Assembly (NCBI GenBank): GCA_002707155.1
Contig: PAME01000014.1
Span: forward strand, 1-64,000
Length of the DNA: 64,000 nt
Source of the DNA: Crocinitomicaceae bacterium
GTDB taxonomy: Bacteria; Bacteroidota; Bacteroidia; Flavobacteriales_G; Salibacteraceae
Reading direction: 5' to 3'
This document shows, in pieces, positions 47,564 through 49,758 of the stretch (position 1 is the first letter of the stretch; each line of letters starts with the position of its first letter). Under the pieces are notes generated by a model. It was not told the origin of the DNA, ran no database searches, and saw only the letters and a program-made list of their open reading frames with translations. A program made the position numbers and the translations under genes.

Positions 47564-48169
47564 GTGGTATTTCTTGAAGGCTATTTAATTGGATTGGCAA
47601 TGATCGTTTTCATTGGCCCCGTATTTTTCACCTTACTTCAGAGTGCTTTTCGGTTTGGTAAATTATCTGGCATCATGGTCGCCATTGGCATTATTGTAAG
47701 CGATATCGTATGCGTTCTAATCTACTATTTTGGATTAAATAGAATTGAATTACCAGCCTCTTCAAATTATATTATAGCGTTAACTGGTGCTATAATTCTA
47801 ATCGGGTTGGGTATCAAATACCTACTTCAAAAACCGCCAAATAGTGAAGTCTCATTTGCTTCAAATCTGAATTTAGTTTCCTCGTTTACAAAAGGTTTCG
47901 CCGTTAATTTCGTAAACCCATTCGTATTTGTGGTTTGGGCAGGGATATTTGTATTTGCAAAAGAATCTTATTCAACCCAAACTGAAGTTCAATACCACTT
48001 GATAGCAGTATTAGCTGGTATCTTAACAACTGATCTACTGAAGGTGCTTTTGGCGGATAAGATCAAACCCTTTTTAAAGCCAAAAATTCTTGAAAAAACC
48101 ACGAAATTTTTTGGAATTGTAATGATAGGATTTGCCTTTAGACTTATTCTATATTTGTATACATTGTAA
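47564..48169 (+). CDS. LysE-family exporter
   Basis: This 201-residue membrane protein of the LysE/RhtB type exports an amino acid or related small molecule. It starts at GTG (47564, GTGGTATTTCTTGAAGG), the first in-frame start consistent with the typical LEGYLIGLAMIVFIGPVFFT opening. Six hydrophobic helices are visible, and GFAVNFVNPFVFVVWAG is the conserved fourth segment. The substrate cannot be predicted. Divergent from the SulP gene with 82 bp between. Confidence 0.85.
   Translation: MVFLEGYLIGLAMIVFIGPVFFTLLQSAFRFGKLSGIMVAIGIIVSDIVCVLIYYFGLNRIELPASSNYIIALTGAIILIGLGIKYLLQKPPNSEVSFASNLNLVSSFTKGFAVNFVNPFVFVVWAGIFVFAKESYSTQTEVQYHLIAVLAGILTTDLLKVLLADKIKPFLKPKILEKTTKFFGIVMIGFAFRLILYLYTL
48150..48157 (+). 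promoter_or_regulatory. Perfect -7 box at 3' end of LysE-type gene
   Basis: TATATTTG is a perfect TAnnTTTG lying inside the end of the LysE gene, pointing into the ORF-less stretch that follows. No -33 TTG at 19 bp. It may be chance in AT-rich coding DNA. Confidence 0.3.
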
Positions 48170-48534
48170 ACATAAAGCACTGTAATTTAATTACTTAAAC
48201 GCGATCGGAGCAGCGTTAATTCCTGGGATTTGGTTATTATCATCCGAAAGTGGCTGGCACCGCATGAATGGAAGCATCTGGAATGCCAAATGAAAAGGTT
48301 AAAGGTGGCAACATGCCATGTTTGAAAGACGACGCTTTAAATACATTTTAATTAATGCAGGATATTGGAATTTAACTGTCGCACTTACGGGTGTTGTTAT
48401 TTACTAATGGGCATAGGGTAGTTTTTAGTTAGGCGTAAATAGTTGCATGTTGTAGAAACTATTTACTGCTTTGTAGTTGAAGACATGATGAATAAAAATT
48501 TAAAACGGTCGGCAATAAATGCTGATTTTTTTTT
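48164..48534 (+). ncRNA. Candidate structured non-coding transcript
   Basis: About 350 bp hold no credible open frame on either strand. A perfect -7 box lies just upstream (48150-48157), a T9-tailed hairpin ends the stretch (48509-48534), and inside is a perfect 10-bp stem (GTAAATAGTT 48435-48444, AACTATTTAC 48457-48466) with a 12-nt loop, plus a 5-bp stem AACGC/GCGTT (48198-48202, 48213-48217). This could be a regulatory RNA or the eroded remains of a gene; I cannot tell which. No known RNA family is recognised. Confidence 0.3.
48509..48534 (+). terminator. Rho-independent terminator
   Basis: Stem TCGGCA (48509-48514) pairs with TGCTGA (48520-48525) with one G-T wobble, loop ATAAA, then nine T residues (48526-48534). 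It reads best on the plus strand. On the minus strand it lies just after the broken Kazal gene. Confidence 0.6.
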
Positions 48535-48736
48535 ATTGGCATTTACCTTCTGAGTATTGTTTTATCCCTGACCGTTCTGCATAATAGTTGTTTCAATACG
48601 TTTCTCCATCACAGCCACAAACCGGTTCGTAAATATCTAAACAACTATTGTTAAGCGTTCGTTTCTCATTACAATCATTTTTGCAACCTATAATGACTAG
48701 AAAGAGTAACCCAACTACGAGATACTTTAAATTCAT
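48533..48736 (-). pseudogene. Kazal-type protease-inhibitor lipoprotein broken by TGA
   Basis: From the ATG at 48736 the frame reads a lipoprotein signal (LLFLVIIGC, Cys18) and then a Kazal domain: CLDIYEPVCGCDGETY, codons 32-47. Codon 48 is TGA (48595-48593). Reading on, the same frame continues the Kazal pattern (NNYYAERSGIKQY, then EGKCQ) to a TAA at codon 68. Kazal domains normally read T-Y-x-N-x-C-x-A; here the x after Tyr is a stop and the Cys is Tyr (codon 51). The domain is thus disrupted twice. An intact version would inhibit serine proteases at the cell surface. It lies 14 bp after the YdjM-like gene in the same direction. Confidence 0.75.
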
Positions 48737-48750
48737 GTATTAAAGATAAA

Positions 48751-49758
48751 TTAGTTTCCCTTTATTCGAGTCCACAGAACAGAGAACATCTCTTTAGCGT
48801 TCTCAATTTCAGGTTGCCGCTGAGATACAGTAAGTGTACCGTCAACGTAAACCAAGTCGTATCGAAATACAAACTCTTCGGTTGCATCACCAAATGAAAA
48901 CATACCAAAGCGCAAATCATTGAATGCGTATCCTTCTTCTGTCTTTTTAATTATGTACCAACCCTTGCAAAGCTTAATTAATCGCTGTACCATTTCCTCT
49001 TGCATAATTTCTTCAAACTCGCCTCGATTTTTATCTATTTGATTAAAATAGATTTGATCCTGAGTATCAAAAAGGGAATAATAACCAATAAAATAGCTGC
49101 TATCGGCGTCCACGTTTGCAGTCCACAAAACAGTATTTAAAGGAGTCGGACGATTTGAAATCTCGTTGAATTCAATATCCTGTGCTTTTAAACTATCCTC
49201 AAATTTAAAATAGGTATATCCCTTTATTCCTATAGTCAATACCATGTAAATTGTACTTAGAATTATTCCAAGTTTATTGATGGAACTTCGCCTTGGGTTA
49301 GTTCTGTGATAAAACATAGCAGCAGCTGTGCACACCAAAAATGGAATAGTATAAAGCGGGTCTGCAACAAAAATATTTTGGTAAGAGACCTTTAATTCAA
49401 GTGGCCAAAAAAGTTGTGTTCCCCAAGTAGTATGTGCATCTAGCAGAGGGTGTGTAATCAAACTCCAAAAGAATAACCACGACCATTGTTTCCAATTAGC
49501 TTCTTGAGATTTTCGGTAAATTTTACTAACCAACCAGCCAAAAATAGGCGCAGCTAAAACACTAAATAATATAGAGTGTGAAAACCCCCGATGCATTTCA
49601 TTGGCAGTTACAATATCAGTAAACTGCTTAGCCAAGACATCTAAATCGGGAATCGTTCCAGCAATTGCTCCCCAAAGCATTGCTTTATTCCCTATTTTCT
49701 TACCTAGCGTTACCTCAGCAACAGCAGCTCCAAGTACAATTTGTGTTAACGAATCCAT
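48751..49758 (-). CDS. YdjM-like metal-dependent hydrolase, membrane
   Basis: The 335-residue inner-membrane protein begins MDSLTQIVLGAAVAEVTLGK, typical of the YdjM/DUF457 family, and has the conserved acidic/His residues GTIPDLDVL, HRGFSHS (about 55-61) and HPLLDAHTTWG, likely metal ligands. Four to five hydrophobic segments lie in the N-terminal half; the C-terminal part is soluble. In E. coli the relative is part of the LexA regulon; no LexA box was looked for with confidence here. The start overlaps the preceding GNAT stop (TAATG on the minus strand). The broken Kazal gene follows. Confidence 0.88.
   Translation of the reverse strand: MDSLTQIVLGAAVAEVTLGKKIGNKAMLWGAIAGTIPDLDVLAKQFTDIVTANEMHRGFSHSILFSVLAAPIFGWLVSKIYRKSQEANWKQWSWLFFWSLITHPLLDAHTTWGTQLFWPLELKVSYQNIFVADPLYTIPFLVCTAAAMFYHRTNPRRSSINKLGIILSTIYMVLTIGIKGYTYFKFEDSLKAQDIEFNEISNRPTPLNTVLWTANVDADSSYFIGYYSLFDTQDQIYFNQIDKNRGEFEEIMQEEMVQRLIKLCKGWYIIKKTEEGYAFNDLRFGMFSFGDATEEFVFRYDLVYVDGTLTVSQRQPEIENAKEMFSVLWTRIKGN

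Follow-up and report, generated by a model that had tools for sequence, protein, structure and literature searches.

A Kazal-type lipoprotein gene at positions 48533..48736 (minus strand) of the window, the whole stretch of 64,000 nucleotides that was analysed, is very probably a second copy, confined to this lineage and recently inactivated, of a small lipoprotein of the Bacteroidota type. No other reading of this locus comes close to that of a recent pseudogene derived from a non-essential extra copy, which is supported by two independent lesions, by sense codons in the intact relatives, by recoding machinery that was not found in the genome and by another decayed gene at the same site. The first-pass annotation had argued that two lesions in one small domain point to a recent pseudogene rather than to a sequencing slip; the pseudogene is upheld, but the gene has proved to be a second copy and not the genus's own Kazal gene.

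An interrupted frame that remains Kazal-like

Read on the minus strand from 48736 to 48533, the sequence translates as MNLKYLVVGLLFLVIIGCKNDCNEKRTLNNSCLDIYEPVCGCDGETY-stop-NNYYAERSGIKQYSEGKCQ-stop, which amounts to 67 residues when the TGA is passed over. The ATG at 48736 opens a 47-codon open reading frame that is closed by the TGA at 48595..48593, beyond which the same frame continues for 19 more codons to a TAA at 48535..48533. Residues 14-18 form the lipobox-like motif VIIGC of a lipoprotein signal, and Pfam Kazal_1 (PF00050) matches residues 26-49 of the read-through sequence, in which the stop was written as X, at 22.6 bits against a cut-off of 21. The open reading frame, the lipobox and the Pfam match bear out the initial observation that a TGA at codon 48 cuts off a frame encoding a lipoprotein signal and most of a Kazal domain, owing to which no complete open Kazal domain is present.

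It had also been claimed that the frame stays Kazal-like up to the TAA, and this proved correct: a profile of 56 relatives, from which the window sequence was excluded, gives the 19 residues that follow the TGA a score of 20.6 bits, whereas the top score among 5,000 shuffled post-stop peptides is 9.4 bits and, when 7,505 in-frame continuations beyond stop codons of the window were scored, the next best reached 5.6 bits. These two comparisons rule out chance as the source of the homology after the stop. Leave-one-out scoring against 45 intact six-cysteine relatives, with the parts before and after the stop treated separately, showed that the pre-stop part is normal (36.5 bits versus a median of 38.5), while the post-stop part scores 18.0 bits versus a median of 24.1, which is under 41 of the 45 relatives yet inside their range, suggesting that the decay is slight and that either the lesion is recent or selection has been relaxed only recently.

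Two lesions in one small domain

The in-frame TGA at codon 48 (48593..48595, minus strand) is a disabling change when set against intact homologues, as all 57 aligned relatives have a sense codon at the corresponding position, mostly for Ser (30) or Gly (11). The intact relatives that had been sought were therefore found as regards codon 48, although no intact orthologue was found at the site itself.

The second lesion is a TAT (Tyr) at codon 51 (48584..48586, minus strand), a position that holds a cysteine in the six-cysteine class. The earlier statement that Tyr replaces a cysteine of the family is right about the codon, but it needs to be qualified, because this cysteine is present in 45 of the 57 aligned relatives and is not universal: there is an intact subgroup without Cys 51, which is also without Cys 32. 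The absence of Cys 51 gains its significance solely from the retention of its likely partner, Cys 32, in the window copy. Among 63 relative domains, taken ungapped from the VC motif and scored for a cysteine 8 residues before C40 and another 11 residues after it, C32 and C51 agree in their presence or absence in 62 (both present in 49, both absent in 13), the sole discordant case being a multi-domain protein (Fisher P about 1e-12, with domains counted without correction for relatedness). The classical Kazal fold has a C2-C4 disulfide, and such co-presence is what this disulfide predicts, so that C51 is the likely partner of C32. The window copy has C32 and a Tyr at 51, and thus falls outside both natural classes; judged from these sequences, the retention of C32 in the absence of C51 suggests damage and not natural variation. 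A natural variant lacking the C2-C4 pair was considered and rejected, as intact relatives without C51 are, apart from the multi-domain exception, also without C32.

An extra copy at a decaying site

The Kazal open reading frame sits between a gene for a LysE-type translocator (47564..48169, plus strand) and one for a YdjM-type inner membrane protein (48751..49758, minus strand), both of which are intact syntenic neighbours; the Kazal ATG lies 14 bases downstream of the end of the latter. Three congeners have a YdjM of 86-90% identity and a conserved gene order, indicating that the contig is native to this genome. The same gap holds the remnant of a DUF1761 membrane-protein gene (48223..48413, plus strand), its middle deleted and with stops inside. 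This gene is intact in the same gap of two relatives, G003 and G008 (98.8 bits; loci L119 and L120, with records L032 and L033 looking like the same places), and is a remnant with stops in G001 and G002 as well as in the window, the large internal deletion having been noted in the window. Taken as a whole, the gap between the LysE-type and YdjM-type genes is a site in decay. No Kazal match was obtained at the syntenic site at E<=1 in G001, G002, G003 or G008, and an intact orthologue at this site was consequently discarded as a candidate in these four genomes. When copies of the region were sought at the DNA level, its own genome and seven related ones gave chance matches only. Positions 48414-48532, about 120 bases, likewise have matches in seven related genomes that are no better than chance, and this stretch may have been acquired along with the Kazal gene.

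An intact Kazal lipoprotein is encoded elsewhere in the same genome (G000:C3:74621; L111:4553-4801). Gene by gene, its flanks correspond to the surroundings of the Kazal genes in G001 and G002, mostly at 79-97% identity, which indicates that it is the copy shared within the genus and, as two congeners have it, that the window copy is extra and lineage-specific; in G003 no Kazal match was found in the whole genome. The two copies share size and general design, but the genus copy is intact, belongs to the subgroup in which C32 and C51 are both missing, and has only 36% identity to the window copy. Closer likenesses are seen among the small Kazal lipoproteins of Bacteroidota (PF00050/PF07648; L156, L003 and L004), which carry a lipoprotein signal and the PVCGCDG-TY-N motif as the window copy does, L156 and L003 also having the same cysteine spacing. 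All three have intact frames, with C32 and C51 both present in L156 and L003 and both absent in L004, whereas the window copy is stopped and has lost only C51. Its nearest relatives are about 40-56% identical and no close orthologue was found. A tree of 48 domains does not place it firmly, the domain being too short: its nearest grouping, with the family members L004, L154 and L155, has a support of 94/72, which is below threshold. Viral contigs scanned with L004 yielded no relative. L154 (G032:C14:185353), a Kazal relative from a different genus, shows a drop in domain similarity after residue 50 and is possibly, to judge from its sequence, a second frame-damaged Kazal copy.

The notion that Kazal inhibitors are uncommon in bacteria does not hold for this group, in which 34 of 60 sampled related genomes gave a match at E<=0.01. 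Among the titles listed by literature searches, none dealt with Kazal lipoproteins of Bacteroidota. Classical Kazal inhibitors are secreted animal proteins, whereas the bacterial type has an additional cysteine in the VCGC motif; one of the former, the leech-derived tryptase inhibitor (PDB 1an1, 2kmo), aligns with residues 31-66 of the window copy, that is, across the stop.

Gene decay and its rivals

The history of the locus would have begun with the gain of a Kazal copy, either transferred or duplicated, immediately downstream of ydjM, in the gap where the ancestral DUF1761 gene has decayed. Inactivation would have followed as codon 48 became a stop codon and codon 51 ceased to encode Cys, the latter change being expected to unpair the C2-C4 disulfide. 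That gain preceded loss is inferred from the absence of the gene in the four relatives, and the order of the two lesions is likewise an inference; loss of a Kazal gene from all four relatives, instead of a gain here, would be a less economical alternative. Cells might still synthesize and export the truncated lipoprotein, although its 47 residues, with two C-terminal half-cystines missing, would presumably have no function. That this truncated form is the one that functions is very improbable: its start codon, its lipobox and the stretch from C2 to past C3 are all intact, and the open reading frame, lying so close behind ydjM, could be co-transcribed with it, but truncation removes positions 51 and 66, leaving C32 and one other cysteine unpartnered, and the C-terminal Cys 66 is carried by 56 of 57 relatives.

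Somewhat less remote, yet still improbable, is that the gene is intact and that errors of sequencing or assembly account for its apparent lesions. The genome has an estimated contamination of 6.58% and the frame is otherwise little damaged, but this explanation would need two independent errors, in the form of substitutions three codons apart of which one hits a structurally paired cysteine, and neither codon shows a frameshift or a low-complexity run; moreover, a contig syntenic with those of relatives is not a contaminant. The least probable alternative of all is that the TGA is recoded, as selenocysteine or by readthrough, to give a full-length protein. The frame is intact after the stop up to the normal end of the domain, and TGA rarely serves as a stop in this setting, closing 2 of 42 long open frames. 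The genome, however, has no match to SelA (the control was positive in E. coli) and no true tRNA-Sec was found in it, the four tRNA-Sec-like matches all being below the cut-off and assigned by ARAGORN to Ser, Leu, Leu and Tyr tRNAs, while RF2 is present (474 bits, cut-off 370). With selenocysteine machinery missing and RF2 at hand, recoding was rejected; the residues found at codon 48 in relatives are Ser, Gly and others, not Cys, and a Kazal lipoprotein made in the cell by passing over the TGA, which is hardly to be expected, would still keep an unpaired cysteine.

In conclusion, the fate of this gene is ordinary gene decay. A Kazal protein of this kind may shield surface proteins from proteases, as can be suggested at the level of the family. 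Beyond annotation the case adds little: it illustrates how small Kazal lipoproteins come and go in marine Flavobacteriales, in a pattern of one conserved copy and one dispensable extra, and the near-strict co-presence of C32 and C51 supports, at the sequence level, a classical C2-C4 disulfide in Kazal proteins of the bacterial type.
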